Shown: piece by piece, positions 14,444-21,615 of the stretch
Layout of the letters: each line of letters begins with the position of its first letter
Position numbering within the stretch: the stretch's first letter is position 1
IMG/VR virus record: IMGVR_UViG_3300042937_000104
Coordinates: 1 to 27,909 of that record
Source: a virus
Length of the DNA stretch: 27,909 bases
Direction: 5' to 3' (one strand)
Notes under the pieces: model-generated
What the model saw: only the letters and a program-made list of their open reading frames with translations
The model's database searches: none
Told to the model about the DNA's origin: nothing
Position numbers and translations under genes: made by a program

Positions 14444-14626
14444 TCACCTCCTATAGTCTTGTTCTTCAACTGTGAAACTTCTTAGCTCTGTCCTGTCTTC
14501 CAAATCAATAGTAGCTGTATGATCTGAGCAATTCAAGCACAAGTCTAAAAACTCTTTAGTCCCTGCGTATCTCCTGGTTTGTTCGTAATCCGTTAACGCT
14601 TCATCACAGCTTAAACATCTCATCAT
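14444..14626 (-). CDS. Small zinc-ribbon protein (60 aa)
   Basis: Two C-x2-C pairs, CLSC (Cys4, Cys7) and CLNC (Cys30, Cys33), 23 residues apart, form a probable zinc ribbon, followed by a charged tail. The ATG at 14626 overlaps the stop of the tiny membrane peptide (ATGA) and stands four bases after AAAGGGG; a second ATG at 14623 is equally possible. I recognise this as a common hypothetical phage protein type. A zinc site is well supported, the function is not known. Confidence 0.7.
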   Translation of the reverse strand: MMRCLSCDEALTDYEQTRRYAGTKEFLDLCLNCSDHTATIDLEDRTELRSFTVEEQDYRR

Positions 14627-14691
14627 TCATCCCCTTTATAAACTAACGCAGTTACCATCACAACTATTAACGACACCAGAAAGTAATCCAT
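14623..14691 (-). CDS. Tiny membrane peptide (22 aa)
   Basis: ATG at 14691 overlaps the primase-helicase stop (TGATG) and the stop at 14623-14625 overlaps the next start (ATGA), so the 69-base frame exactly bridges two genes. The product is one hydrophobic helix (FLVSLIVVMVTALVY) with a short charged end (KGDE). It resembles the 33-residue membrane protein at 9946-10047 in form. It may instead be only a translational bridge; expression is inferred from the two overlaps. Confidence 0.45.
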   Translation of the reverse strand: MDYFLVSLIVVMVTALVYKGDE

Positions 14692-16271
14692 CAAAACACC
14701 TCAACACTTCTGCCGCTGACATTATCATAAAACAACATGCAACACAGACCTGTCTCACCACTGAATCTATTCTTCAACACTCTAACGTGTGTTGTGTTTT
14801 TCTGTATCAAATCATCAGCTTGCCCGTCTCTCTCTAACCCTATGACAATATCTGATAGCTGTGCAATGCTGGCACTGCCGCGTAGCTGGCTCAGTGACGT
14901 ACTGCTACCCTCTTCGTGACCAACACCCTCCTTACGCTTCAAATGACTCACCAGTATCAAGGCTATGTCACTCTCTGCTGTCAGCATACGCAGCTTAGTC
15001 ATGCACTCATCAATAGCCTTACGCTCATCACCATTGCTTTGAGCAGATACAATAATACTGATGTGATCTAGGAAAATATAACGACAATCCAAACCCTTAG
15101 CCATATAACGTACACGCGACACGATGTTGTCTATGTCTGTTGATCCAAAGTGGTCAAACATAAACACTCTACCGTTACCAATAGTGGCATCAAAAGCCTG
15201 CTTACGCTCCTGCTCAGTGCTAATAGTAGTGGGTAGATGCAGAGTCTTGTTAGCCTCCAGTGACATCAACGACAACCCTGTCTTGCGTACACTCTCTTCC
15301 AGCATCAGCATACCGATGTTGACATCTGTGTGCTTAATAATGTGATGAGCCAACTCTCTTACAAACTGAGACTTACCCAGCCCACTACCGGCTGTGATAG
15401 TAACTAGTTCACCTGTCCTGATGCCGTAGGTAATCTTATTTATACCAGCCCACGGGTACTGCACAGGGGCTTGTTGCACTGGTGAGTTAACCTCTTCCCA
15501 TAGCGAGTCAGCACAGACAATGCCATCAGGGATGTAGCGTTCAGCGTCCCACCACTGCGTCATAAACAGCTTATCCTGCCCCTTCTGCAAGTAGTCGCTG
15601 GCATCTTTGTAACCTACTGCATGTTTTACAATCTTACACTTACCGCCAAAGAGCTGTGCCACCTCAATAGCAGCCTTCTGACCTGGTTCATCACCATCAA
15701 GGCATAGCACGATGTTCTCAAAGCTGTTGAGCCACTCATAAGCAGCCTTGCAGTCCTTCAACGCACTCGATGCGCCGTTGCGTACACTGACCGCTGGATA
15801 CTTACTACCCATCAGCTGGTATGCAGACAATGCATCATACTCACCTTCCACGATGGTGACATACTTACCGCCACCTGCGAACAGCTGCTGACCAAATAAT
15901 CCACCACCTGCCCAGTCACCAACAACACTGAACCGCTTGTCTGGGTATCGAATCTTAGCAGCCACCACTGTATGCGGATCAGCCGCTGCGTAGTAGCCGT
16001 AGATGACATAACTACCCATATCCATAGTAGAGTAGTGCTTCGCCGTTAAAACGCTTAGAGAGCGTTCAGGGATGGCTTTAAACGATGCCGTCACCAGTGC
16101 CTGCTGCACACTATCCCAATCCGCTTTACTTACTGTCGTTGTCATAACACCCCCACTGCCTGGAAAGAACCTATTGCAAGCAAAGCACTTGCTGCTGCCG
16201 TCATCATTGTAACACCTACCGTCACTGCTACCACAATCGTCACAAGGACGGTGGAGGATATTGAATCCCAT
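14691..16271 (-). CDS. Primase-helicase (T7 gp4-like)
   Basis: A 526-residue bifunctional enzyme that primes and unwinds at the fork. Domains in order: zinc ribbon (Cys10, Cys13, Cys29, Cys32) for template recognition; TOPRIM primase with VEGEYDA (Glu142, about 141-147) and LDGDEPG (Asp192, Asp194); RecA-type hexameric helicase with Walker A GSGLGKS (295-301), catalytic Glu325/326, Walker B FLDH (Asp402), VSHLKR (441-446) and QLRGSASI (462-469). I start it at ATG 16271, in a TGATG overlap with the upstream stop; an in-frame GTG lies at 16283. Met43 (16145), just after the zinc ribbon, has GGGGG four bases upstream and could start a short helicase-only form as in T7. Confidence 0.93.
   Translation of the reverse strand: MGFNILHRPCDDCGSSDGRCYNDDGSSKCFACNRFFPGSGGVMTTTVSKADWDSVQQALVTASFKAIPERSLSVLTAKHYSTMDMGSYVIYGYYAAADPHTVVAAKIRYPDKRFSVVGDWAGGGLFGQQLFAGGGKYVTIVEGEYDALSAYQLMGSKYPAVSVRNGASSALKDCKAAYEWLNSFENIVLCLDGDEPGQKAAIEVAQLFGGKCKIVKHAVGYKDASDYLQKGQDKLFMTQWWDAERYIPDGIVCADSLWEEVNSPVQQAPVQYPWAGINKITYGIRTGELVTITAGSGLGKSQFVRELAHHIIKHTDVNIGMLMLEESVRKTGLSLMSLEANKTLHLPTTISTEQERKQAFDATIGNGRVFMFDHFGSTDIDNIVSRVRYMAKGLDCRYIFLDHISIIVSAQSNGDERKAIDECMTKLRMLTAESDIALILVSHLKRKEGVGHEEGSSTSLSQLRGSASIAQLSDIVIGLERDGQADDLIQKNTTHVRVLKNRFSGETGLCCMLFYDNVSGRSVEVF
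16143..16154 (-). promoter_or_regulatory. Possible internal ribosome site for a helicase-only form
   Basis: On the - strand GGGGG (16154-16150), four bases, then an in-frame ATG at 16145 (Met43 of the primase-helicase). Initiation here would give 484 residues lacking the zinc ribbon, parallel to the T7 4B protein. The spacer is short, so efficiency is uncertain. Confidence 0.4.
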
Positions 16272-16492
16272 CACATACACCACTGGATGGTGACATAAAC
16301 AAACGGTAACAGGAGCATAATACCTGTCGTCTCTTCAACACCATCACCTTCACCCAGCAGCATTCTCTCAACATCTTCATCCAATATATCTTCAGACACT
16401 TTCACTATAAAGCCATTATTGCCAGCCAAGTCAAAACCGAAGCCGTTTCTCAGGCCAGCTATAACACTAACACCACCTATTGTAAAAAACAT
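16271..16492 (-). CDS. Small membrane protein with hydrophobic ends (73 aa)
   Basis: The start is set at ATG 16492, five bases after AGGAG; an upstream in-frame ATG at 16513 precedes that site and is not favoured. The N-terminal FFTIGGVSVIAG and C-terminal GIMLLLPFVYVTIQW are hydrophobic, with an acidic middle (SEDILDEDVERM, EGDGVEE). This gives a possible hairpin or two-pass membrane protein. It is the first gene of the replication operon after the 113-base gap at 16493-16605 and is coupled to the primase-helicase. A holin-like role is conceivable because no holin was recognised elsewhere, but nothing in the sequence proves it. Confidence 0.6.
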   Translation of the reverse strand: MFFTIGGVSVIAGLRNGFGFDLAGNNGFIVKVSEDILDEDVERMLLGEGDGVEETTGIMLLLPFVYVTIQWCM

Positions 16493-17247: not shown

Positions 17248-17418
17248 TTAACCCCTTGCAATCTTGTTGATGGTATCTTGATTAATCAATGTGGAATGCG
17301 TCATGTCTCTATCGTCAATCTCAATCGTCAGTATAGTGTGCTGATCCGTCACCGTGTCAATATCAACTCTAACTTTCACTCTATGCCCTTCAAAGTATGT
17401 CAATACTTGTTTAATCAT
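17248..17418 (-). CDS. Hypothetical small protein (56 aa)
   Basis: A short gene from ATG 17418, in a TAATG overlap with the previous stop, to TAA at 17248-17250. The sequence alternates hydrophobic and charged residues (VKVRVDIDT, TILTIEIDD), indicating a small beta sheet followed by a helix (LINQDTINKIARG). The ending IARG resembles that of the 272-residue GP88-like protein (LIARG). Unknown function. Confidence 0.6.
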   Translation of the reverse strand: MIKQVLTYFEGHRVKVRVDIDTVTDQHTILTIEIDDRDMTHSTLINQDTINKIARG

Positions 17419-17633
17419 TATCGTATCCCTTTAGCTTCGCGCTCTCTCTGTGATATCTCTTTAAAAGTCAATGCTTTATCTGGTAAAGCACTCTCACCAA
17501 TCTTAGCTGCGTACACTTTACCACCTAATCGTTTGAATATCCTAATGTCTCTGAGCAGTTTCTGCCGTAGTTTATCCGCTTGATCCAGTGTTCTCTGCGG
17601 CTCTGTTAACTTTCTAGGGTAAATGTCACTCAT
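17418..17633 (-). CDS. Conserved small basic phage protein (71 aa)
   Basis: Begins at ATG 17633, two bases after the previous stop. A basic, helical protein with LDQADKLRQKLLRDIRIFKRLGGK followed by a short Gly-containing loop and a second helix. I recognise this type as a recurrent hypothetical protein in phage early regions, without a known function. The positive charge would suit nucleic-acid or acidic-protein binding (inference). Confidence 0.6.
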   Translation of the reverse strand: MSDIYPRKLTEPQRTLDQADKLRQKLLRDIRIFKRLGGKVYAAKIGESALPDKALTFKEISQREREAKGIR

Positions 17634-18625: not shown

Positions 18626-18817
18626 TCATACTGTTACCGCCTCTGTTTTAATGATATCGAATTCACCCAAGTAACCTAGCTTTATTCCATCCTCATCATA
18701 TACCGCAACTCTGGCAAGTCTAGTAGCGTCAATCTCTGCACGATATGTCCAGTTATCATCAGGATCAAAGTTTAGAGCGCATACTAGGTCGATAGCCTTA
18801 AGATAATGCATATTCAT
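18626..18817 (-). CDS. Hypothetical protein (63 aa)
   Basis: Start set at ATG 18817, which overlaps the preceding stop as ATGA; a longer frame upstream lies inside that gene. The protein has a Trp/Asp turn (FDPDDNWTYRAE) and then beta strands (RVAVYDEDGIKLGYLGEF). Possibly a small beta-barrel; no family recognised. Confidence 0.6.
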   Translation of the reverse strand: MNMHYLKAIDLVCALNFDPDDNWTYRAEIDATRLARVAVYDEDGIKLGYLGEFDIIKTEAVTV

Positions 18818-19044
18818 AACATGCCCCGTAATTCTGCTTTGATTGTCTGAGCTACAGCACCTCGCCACTGTCCGGCATTGCCTAGAAAGTACCGCACGAT
18901 AGCCTTACCATCATCGTAATAGTACATGTCTGTTATCTTATCCATTTGTATCATTGCTGCTAAGTATGGCACAGCAGCATAGTTAACCTTTTTCCAATCT
19001 CGTTTAATGTCATGCGCGATATTTGATAGCGGCCTTGTTTGCAT
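18814..19044 (-). CDS. Conserved small phage protein (76 aa)
   Basis: Start at ATG 19044, eight bases after GGAG; the longer frame from 19080 would overlap the preceding gene. The sequence has IAHDIKRDWKKVNYAAVPYLAAM, a Tyr/Asp-rich centre, and IVRYFLGNAGQWRG followed by a basic helix. This is a familiar hypothetical family in tailed phages. It is about 75 residues long in every case I recall, and its function is unknown. Confidence 0.7.
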   Translation of the reverse strand: MQTRPLSNIAHDIKRDWKKVNYAAVPYLAAMIQMDKITDMYYYDDGKAIVRYFLGNAGQWRGAVAQTIKAELRGML

Positions 19045-19202: not shown

Positions 19203-20021
19203 TTAACCTCTTGCAATCAAATTTTGCAGATTGGTGTAAGTTTTAAGACTGAAGAAAAAGTTCGGCTTATCCATGTTATCAATTCTTGATTGTCTGCTAC
19301 CGCCTTTATACTTTAAACCTCCTAAAACCTTATCATCAGTAAAGCGCAAATCGGTAGTATCAAAGTCTGCCAAGTCTGTCGGCATAGTGAATTCGCCTTT
19401 TCTCTCGCCTGTGTTAAATGCTATTGCTACTCTGTGTCCAGCCTTGATAGCCCGCGCTGTCATAAATATAGTTTTTTCACTGTATGCACTACCAGAAAAC
19501 GTAATGTCATAATTAGTCAATGTATTCTTGATAACACGGGCATAAACCTTGGAATAATCATAAAACCTGATATGCGGCATGCTGGCAATGAATGCGGTAA
19601 AATCAATATCCGTTGTGCCATTTAATCTGATAGCTAATTGGTCACCATGTTTGCGATGTTTTGCCTGAATCTCTTTTCGCAACATTGAATAGAATCGATC
19701 ACTGTCCAACAAATAAATTATGGTTCTACGTGTAGCGGCACTCTGTCCGGTTGTCATGCCGAGCATACCGCTACCGATCAGGCATATATCTTTGCATCCA
19801 AATAGTGCAGCAGCAGAACATAGTGTACGTGTTGCAACCTTATCTGCCGGTTGCATATATAGGATAGCAGTGTAATAACCTTCCGACTCTCCTTTCTCTA
19901 CTTTGATGCTACTACCCAACAACGGATTATCTGAATTGATATAGTCTAGGTTTTCTAATGCCCAAGCTTTAGACGCGGCATTGATTAAGCTTGTATCTTG
20001 TATTTGTTGAATTGTGATCAT
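19203..20021 (-). CDS. GP88-like phage protein of unknown function (272 aa)
   Basis: The largest protein of the early block, behind an AAGGAG-type site. Cys68, Cys76 and Cys80 (LCSAAALFGCKDICL) lead into GSGMLGMTTGQSAATRRT. Later phrases are LAIRLNGTTDIDF (about 129-141), FYDYSKV and NYDITFSGS. This set of short motifs matches my recollection of the phage family named gene product 88 (GP88), which is widespread, cysteine-bearing and of unknown function. The conserved Cys cluster could bind a metal or iron-sulphur centre. It is among the first genes read from the leftward promoter, so it may act early in infection. The family name should be confirmed by a profile search. Confidence 0.6.
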   Translation of the reverse strand: MITIQQIQDTSLINAASKAWALENLDYINSDNPLLGSSIKVEKGESEGYYTAILYMQPADKVATRTLCSAAALFGCKDICLIGSGMLGMTTGQSAATRRTIIYLLDSDRFYSMLRKEIQAKHRKHGDQLAIRLNGTTDIDFTAFIASMPHIRFYDYSKVYARVIKNTLTNYDITFSGSAYSEKTIFMTARAIKAGHRVAIAFNTGERKGEFTMPTDLADFDTTDLRFTDDKVLGGLKYKGGSRQSRIDNMDKPNFFFSLKTYTNLQNLIARG

Positions 20022-20294: not shown

Positions 20295-20323
20295 ATAATG
20301 CTCTTCTATGGTTATATAGTCAA
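20295..20323 (-). promoter_or_regulatory. Leftward early promoter (sigma70 type)
   Basis: On the - strand: -35 TTGACT (20318-20323, five of six), 17-base spacer, -10 CATTAT (20295-20300, four of six). The predicted start is near 20288, with a leader of about 50 bases to the first early gene. The identical -10 and spacer length of the ssDNA-binding protein promoter support it. Confidence 0.65.
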
Positions 20324-20531: not shown

Positions 20532-20631
20532 TACTGAGTGATTATGAAATGCACTGACGGATTATGAACTAGTGCGACATCGTACTACTTAGACCACTGA
20601 CGGATTATGAACAACACTGACGGATTATGAA
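20532..20631 (+). repeat. Four phased 17-bp iterons
   Basis: CACTGACGGATTATGAA occurs perfectly at 20552-20568, 20595-20611 and 20615-20631; a variant TACTGAGTGATTATGAA is at 20532-20548. Start-to-start spacing is 20, 43 and 20 bases, close to whole turns of DNA, so all four face nearly the same side. This is the layout of initiator or repressor binding iterons. Confidence 0.85.
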
Positions 20632-20635
20632 ATGC

Positions 20636-20691
20636 TATGCTATAACATATCCAGGGCAGCAGCTGCTAAGTCTATGATATGCTATAACATA
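20636..20691 (+). repeat. Pair of 14-bp repeats flanking a palindrome
   Basis: TATGCTATAACATA at 20636-20649 and 20678-20691, 42 bases apart (four helical turns). Each is itself an imperfect palindrome. Between them lies the perfect palindrome AGCAGCTGCT (20658-20667). Likely protein-binding sites. Confidence 0.7.
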
Positions 20692-20696
20692 ACATA

Positions 20697-20712
20697 GGCG
20701 GGGGAGGGGGGG
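20697..20712 (+). other. G-tract
   Basis: Sixteen bases with only one C and one A among G (GGCGGGGGAGGGGGGG), in an otherwise AT-rich region, directly after the repeat pair. It could slow polymerases or fold into a G-quadruplex; it may also be a packaging or termination signal. Only the composition is seen. Confidence 0.6.
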
Positions 20713-20911
20713 CTGCTGTGGTGGTGATGATGTGGTAGCTACTTAGACACAAAATAAGGTAAATTAGACTTTGTTATATTAAAAAAGAATAAGGATGAAT
20801 GGTTACATAAGGCTATGATAACTATGAAGAAACGATGGCGGGCTGCGGAGACTGTGTACTGACACAAACCCGCACTGAGCTTGTGTGTAAGGGACACTAC
20901 ACAGGTTGTGC

Positions 20912-20927
20912 TGTGACTGCAATCACA
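20912..20927. promoter_or_regulatory. CRP-like operator upstream of the rightward promoter
   Basis: TGTGACTGCAATCACA is an exact match to the CRP core TGTGA-N6-TCACA. Its centre is about 70 bases before the predicted start of the rightward promoter (-10 at 20977-20982), a distance used by class I CRP-dependent promoters. A phage-encoded regulator that prefers the same palindrome is the alternative. Confidence 0.5.
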
Positions 20928-20953: not shown

Positions 20954-20982
20954 TTGACTTTTTAGTGAAAATATGCTATATT
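20954..20982 (+). promoter_or_regulatory. Rightward promoter for packaging and head genes
   Basis: -35 TTGACT (20954-20959), 17-base spacer, -10 TATATT (20977-20982) with a TG extended -10 (TGCTATATT). The predicted start is near 20989, which overlaps a CTATATAG palindrome at 20984-20991 and gives a leader of about 200 bases. The same TATGCTATA core recurs in the promoter at 25667. Confidence 0.8.
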
Positions 20983-21186: not shown

Positions 21187-21615
21187 ATGTCTAATGATGT
21201 TACACATGAAGAGATAGTTAATTCTTCTGTTACCCCTGAAGGGGATGTGTTAAAGAATAAGAGGGTAGGTCGTCCTACAAAGTCTATGTTAGCCGCTGTT
21301 CAGAAGAAGAATAAGGTTGGTAGACCAAAGGGTGATGCAGCCATCATGAATGATATGAAGGCTAGGTTAATAGCATCTCCCAAGTCTAGGAAGGTATTAG
21401 ACAGTATACTTAATGCTGCTTTAGATGATGAACACAAGAATCAATCAGCAGCATGGAAACTCCTGATGGATAGGATGTTACCTGTTAGCTTGTTTGAGAA
21501 AGGTGGTGGTAGCAGTCGTCCTAGTGTCAACATAACCATCAGTGGTGTTGGTACACCAGACATCAGCACAAACACAATAGAAGCTGACTACGAGAGTGTA
21601 GATGATGAACAGTAA
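21187..21615 (+). CDS. terS: Probable terminase small subunit with two AT-hook-like motifs
   Basis: 142 residues; recognises phage DNA and hands it to the large terminase. The N-terminal third carries two basic VGRP cores, at 27-30 (KRVGRPTK) and 44-47 (NKVGRPKG), which resemble AT-hooks that bind the minor groove of AT-rich DNA. The middle (MKARLIASPKSRKVLDSILNAALDDEHKNQ...AAWKLLMDRMLP, about 57-99) is a helical region I associate with podovirus small terminases. The tail is Ser/Thr/acidic. It is the first gene of the rightward operon, next to a repeat-rich non-coding region it might bind. It has only a weak GAGAG ribosome site. Confidence 0.7.
   Translation: MSNDVTHEEIVNSSVTPEGDVLKNKRVGRPTKSMLAAVQKKNKVGRPKGDAAIMNDMKARLIASPKSRKVLDSILNAALDDEHKNQSAAWKLLMDRMLPVSLFEKGGGSSRPSVNITISGVGTPDISTNTIEADYESVDDEQ

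Follow-up and report, generated by a model that had tools for sequence, protein, structure and literature searches.

What is the function of the four 17-bp repeats upstream of the small terminase gene in this phage, and which protein recognises them? The window (the whole stretch of DNA analysed, a 27.9-kb virus record) carries them inside a 0.85-kb divergent intergenic region. Leftward replication genes lie on one side, including those for a ribonucleotide reductase, a T7-type DNA polymerase, an exonuclease and a primase-helicase, while the rightward genes on the other side begin with terS and terL. A preliminary description had treated the phage as T7-like. The T7-type DNA polymerase and the primase-helicase fit that label and are shared with the T7-supergroup marine phages (SIO1 and relatives). 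However, the phage does not seem to belong to the classical T7-like type: the leftward ORFs and early module of the record, which is incomplete, showed no candidate for a single-subunit RNA polymerase like that of T7, and no close isolate of the lineage was present in the collection searched. The window had no DNA matches to phage isolates, and tblastn found its TerS in none of them. In the primase-helicase, SIO1 ranked among the most similar isolates (about 44% identity), and the portal protein was distantly similar to those of HMO-2011-type phages (21-26%). Eighty relatives were fetched with TerS, and L109 and L111 were added via a DNA motif. Since the records are all fragments from metagenomes, with many near-duplicates among the relatives, counts are also given per sequence cluster (34 clusters). 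The features of the intergenic region and terS are as follows.

20295..20323, minus strand: sigma70-type promoter toward the early genes, TTGACT-17-CATTAT, found by scan; surrounding DNA conserved in L001 and L002
20514..20519, minus strand: possible leftward -10, GATAAT (TATAAT in L001), read by eye and not a scan match; its -35 position would lie inside R1
20532..20548, plus strand: repeat R1, TACTGAGTGATTATGAA, 3 mismatches to CACTGACGGATTATGAA
20552..20568, plus strand: repeat R2, CACTGACGGATTATGAA, 0 mismatches
20572..20585: inverted repeat GTGCGA-CA-TCGTAC, with one mismatch here and none in L001 and L002, separating the two repeat pairs
20595..20611, plus strand: repeat R3, CACTGACGGATTATGAA, 0 mismatches
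20615..20631, plus strand: repeat R4, CACTGACGGATTATGAA, 0 mismatches
20636..20649: first copy of TATGCTATAACATA, part of ATGCTATGCTATAACATATC, which is common to the window, L001-L004, L109 and L111
20678..20691: second copy of TATGCTATAACATA, 42 bp from the first and beside the G-tract
20697..20712, plus strand: G-tract GGCGGGGGAGGGGGGG, start of the lineage core, conserved
20736..20759, plus strand: core element TAGCTACTTAGACACAAAATAAGG, about 36 bp to the right of where the G-tract starts
20838..20873, plus strand: hairpin-like element GCGGG-CTGCGGAG-(inner stem)-CCCGC, conserved with the pattern GCG..CTGCGGAG-N-ACCCGC; the inner stem differs in relatives
20954..20982, plus strand: sigma70-type promoter toward terS, TTGACT-17-TATATT with extended -10, found by scan, conserved
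21187..21615, plus strand: terS, small terminase subunit, assigned from its position and its conservation, without a match in Pfam or PHROG

The repeats R1 to R4 were the sole matches to CACTGACGGATTATGAA at up to three mismatches in the window, whereas dinucleotide shuffling (100 rounds) yielded 0.05 matches on average and in no round four. The longest word with at least three occurrences in the intergenic region was 17 nt, compared with at most 10 nt in 300 Markov shuffles. The mismatch scan and the shuffles thus confirm the four-copy array reported earlier, with three exact copies and one variant, although the term near-perfect was generous for R1 with its three mismatches. The start positions gave the same spacings as before, 20, 43 and 20 bp (0, 1.9, 6.0 and 7.9 turns). 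At 10.5 bp per turn, the angular offsets of R1 to R4 were 0, -34, 0 and -34 degrees, and the earlier placement of all copies on about the same helix face was correct. The 17-mers are non-palindromic direct repeats in non-coding DNA, arranged as two tandem pairs flanking the central inverted repeat. They therefore show the several short, helically phased direct repeats by which an iteron origin is recognised.

The preliminary description had proposed a search for the same array in relatives, and had regarded its absence from all close relatives as fatal. The two nearest relatives, L001 and L002, kept four copies with spacings of 20, 44 and 20 bp, and L004 retained two degenerate copies, so the array stood up to this check. 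Across 14 copies from these four phages, CTGA, ATT and TGAA (CTGA-N3-ATT-N-TGAA) were invariant and the other bases varied, a pattern suggestive of a protein contact in two parts, separated by about one turn. Besides the window, L001 and L002 were the only viral contigs with the tandem pattern. Lone matches in the viral contigs L097-L103 were single isolated copies, judged to be chance given the size of the collection, and the tandem pattern in five cellular contigs was taken as unrelated since the taxa are unrelated.

Most of about 60 relatives shared a core composed of the G-tract, about 36 bp, TAGCTAC..ACAAAATAAGG, AT-rich DNA and then the rightward promoter. The core scan did not find an element like TAGCTACTTAGACACAAAATAAGG in ten loci. 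The least stable 50-bp DNA lay to the right of the G-tract in 26 of the 27 loci tested; because this AT-rich stretch overlaps the terS promoter and leader, it is not specific to an origin.

The segment to the left of the G-tract differed by phage and contained the 17-mers, other phased repeats, paired palindromes, clusters of DnaA boxes or tandem sigma54 promoters. The 17-mers formed this cassette in the window, L001 and L002. L109 and L111 carried TGACAACATGCTGTCAT twice, 36 bp apart, L003 had two CACTATAnGTAGTG-like palindromes about 33 bp apart, and further groups had 23-bp, 30-bp or other repeats. Of 52 loci, 29 had direct repeats (at least 14 of 16 matching bases) on the left side of the G-tract and 9 had them on the right side of the core, whereas none of 52 shuffled sequences did. 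The TerS proteins of L003 and L109 were 93% identical and the DNA from core to terS 88.5% identical, whereas their cassettes, with boundaries set by hand, were 52% alike, the level of unrelated cassettes. Similarly, L069 and the L041 group had similar flanks (about 90% identical in such pairs) and cassettes no more alike than chance. The cassette has therefore been replaced independently of terS. To the left of the cassette, 11-bp tandem repeats GGGACTATGTA (4-7 copies) were seen in L002 (3697-3774), L109 (1341-1395) and L003 (129-172) and were absent from the window and L001.

DnaA boxes, which like the sigma54 and NtrC calls below are motif matches and not proof of binding, were concentrated in the same region of the relatives. 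The 80 kb of DNA upstream of terS contained 84 strict boxes, compared with 25 in 440 kb from other parts of the same loci; this control, here and below, is mostly coding DNA, and the Markov expectations from the upstream sequence itself (9.5 for DnaA boxes) agree in direction. The spacings were mostly 11, 22 or 33 bp, and at least three strict boxes were present in 8 of the 34 clusters. In L026, 30-bp repeats stand where L032 has DnaA boxes, and the side with the early promoter and NtrC sites aligns well between the two. This exchange is the strongest reason to regard the repeats as probable initiator sites and the region as a candidate origin.

Sigma54-type -24/-12 sequences (TGGCAYR-N4-YTGCW) were found 38 times upstream of terS and 10 times elsewhere, with a Markov expectation of 0.2 (1.5 with one mismatch allowed). 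They occurred in 13 of the 34 clusters (L013, L021-L026, L029, L032-L040, L044-L049, L055 and L064-L074), and all upstream sites were on the leftward strand, pointing only at the early genes. Part of these relatives also had NtrC-type boxes, some of them perfect (24 upstream of terS, 0 elsewhere; Markov expectation 0.5). Both kinds of sequence agree with the published consensus TGGCACnnTTnTTGC and TGCACCAnnnTGGTGCA (PMC8743547). The cassette segment or its vicinity contained tandem sigma54 promoter sequences, or NtrC boxes at intervals of 20-23 bp, and in one subgroup the tandem sigma54 sites occupied the cassette position itself. These sites suggest host nitrogen control of early transcription in the relatives concerned. 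Neither sigma54 nor NtrC sites were present in the intergenic regions of the window, L001 and L002.

The preliminary description had offered an initiator-type origin or a cooperative regulator as the function of the array. These were the right two candidates, and relatives carry either the array or a substitute at the same place. The first of them is the best-supported reading, to which we give about equal belief and doubt; in it, the 17-mers would be the protein-recognition cassette of a replication origin in the divergent intergenic region. An initiator, from phage or host, would occupy both tandem pairs by cooperative binding along a single face of the helix and would sit beside the G-tract, the TAGCTAC element and the AT-rich core. 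It might then open the AT-rich DNA and allow the phage primase-helicase to load, and exchange of the cassette for DnaA boxes or other phased repeats would call different initiators to the same core. The origin reading is supported by the kept array, the conserved core, the enrichment of DnaA boxes, the repeats left of the G-tract and the weak DNA to its right. Against it stand the failure to find an initiator gene, the lack of an early gene that tracks the cassette and the lack of strict DnaA boxes in the window's intergenic region. GC skew was set aside as an origin test since it is confounded by divergent transcription.

Searches with Pfam and PHROG among the early proteins gave no initiator of the Rep or O-like kind, and no early gene tracked the cassette type by co-occurrence. 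The protein at 17418-17633 was rejected as binder: it occurred only in the window, L002 and L138, its low-confidence model had no helix-turn-helix, and L138 stops short of the origin. The protein at 18814-19038 was also discarded, being present in 25 viral contigs, some longer than 100 kb. The GP88-family protein at 19203-20021 also occurs in phages with another terminase, such as L082, and is therefore not specific to the array. The earlier statement that no binder is obvious in the window holds, and the reader may be a phage protein that these searches do not recognise or, equally, a host protein. The small terminase, for which binding assays had been proposed earlier, is an unlikely reader because near-identical TerS proteins accompany unrelated cassettes.

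The main alternative is that a host or phage activator binds the 17-mers and drives leftward early transcription, from a promoter overlapping R1 or as an upstream enhancer. We consider this possible but not probable. Sites of 17 bp at steps of about two turns resemble AraC- or OmpR-type arrays, and the -10-like GATAAT is placed so that its -35 would overlap R1. The relatives have sigma54 and NtrC sites in or near the same segment, the sigma54 sites all facing the early genes, and L004 combines its two degenerate 17-mers with a sigma54-type site. The subgroup with tandem sigma54 sites in the cassette position also points to transcription and keeps this alternative alive. However, the leftward promoter supported by the scan lies about 210 bp from the array. 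In addition, L032 and L026 share the promoter and NtrC side while the cassette on the G-tract side changes, which argues that the cassette is not the promoter there.

A broader proposal, which we put forward only tentatively, joins the origin and regulator readings. The segment might be one docking site beside a fixed origin core, at which arrays for DnaA, for sigma54/NtrC and for the 17-mer reader are swapped by recombination. If so, the phage would couple both the start of replication and its early transcription to the cell cycle or the nutritional state of the host it infects, and the 17-mers would mark a regulator new to phages.

A recent neutral tandem duplication without function would account for the confinement of the array to a small clade, and in L001 the spacers between the pairs are homogenised, a sign of duplication or conversion. 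This is improbable, as the putative contact bases are invariant in the 14 copies while the spacers vary, and three phages have retained the number of copies and their spacing. About as improbable is a pac site read by the small terminase. A pac site lies near terS in several pac phages, the array here is near terS, the first rightward gene, and several contigs end 530-590 bp upstream of terS. However, the nearly identical TerS proteins of L003 and L109 go with cassettes no more alike than chance, and the independent replacement described above speaks against a role in packaging. The contigs end at differing bases within the hypervariable cassette, as assembly breaks would be expected to do, and the DnaA boxes at the same position would be left unexplained. 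Equally improbable is a decoy function, in which the array would titrate a host regulator, in the way that datA titrates DnaA, and thereby disturb replication or gene control of the host: the clusters of sites for different host regulators in different relatives would fit, but with only a few sites in each genome, competition would be weak before replication is well under way, and a decoy has no need of a fixed place beside a conserved core.

Considered as an origin, the region resembles several known systems. The 17-mer sequence presumably differs from the iterons of RK2, P1 and F. The layout of direct repeats at steps of about two turns beside AT-rich DNA, here at most a candidate unwinding element, resembles that of iteron plasmid origins (RK2 oriV/TrfA, P1 oriR/RepA, F/RepE), which have several direct repeats of 17-22 bp and an AT-rich unwinding element, depend on helical phasing and in many cases contain DnaA boxes (PMC4980987). 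In this lineage such boxes are found in relatives and not in the window phage, and no gene for a Rep, the winged-helix initiator of these plasmids, was recognised in the window. The lambda ori likewise has four iterons of similar size by an AT-rich region in a phage (PMC7466680). In lambda, however, the iterons lie within the O gene and are themselves inverted repeats, unlike the non-palindromic, non-coding repeats here, and no O/P-like genes were found in the window. Because the cognate initiator was sought and not found, the array was classed neither as an iteron plasmid origin nor as a lambda ori. Relatives share with bacterial oriC 3-8 strict DnaA boxes, spacing in multiples of 11 bp and an adjoining GC tract and AT-rich DNA, whereas the window has no strict boxes and its core could not convincingly be read as DnaA-trio repeats.

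To our knowledge, it is not established how replication starts in phages that have T7-type replication proteins but no evident RNA polymerase of their own. A concrete candidate comes from this lineage, with one core and interchangeable putative initiator sites that include host DnaA boxes. The sigma54 promoter sequences with perfect NtrC boxes, seen in many relatives, are a by-product that may matter more than the array. If they work, early expression in a widespread metagenomic phage group would be tied to host nitrogen status, of which we found no report in the literature searched.

Other motifs were noted in the same regions. Motifs for PhoB, LexA (CTGT-N8-ACAG), FNR, ArgR, PurR and NrdR were not enriched upstream of terS. 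Fur-like boxes occurred upstream of terS in L022, L045, L064, L068 and others (26, compared with 23 elsewhere in five times more DNA). The element TATGCTATAACATA resembles a Zur-type palindrome, and Zur-like motifs numbered 25 upstream of terS and 2 elsewhere (Markov expectation 3.5). A perfect CRP-type site, TGTGACTGCAATCACA, at 20912-20927 has its centre about 69 bp ahead of the start inferred for the rightward promoter and is also present in L001 and L002. Rfam gave nothing at gathering score, and a weak mir-2010 match (E 0.49) was dismissed as noise.

A 60-aa cysteine-rich protein (14444-14626), with no Pfam or PHROG match, adjoins the primase-helicase and is encoded in every relative with the early region covered. 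The primase-helicases of the relatives fall into two groups, about 55-65% or 35-39% identical to that of the window (14691-16283). Polymerase and terminase stay similar across this split, indicating that the helicase gene has been exchanged. The hairpin-like element at 20838-20873, which is upstream of the rightward promoter and therefore outside that transcript, mainly accompanies the window-type primase-helicase.
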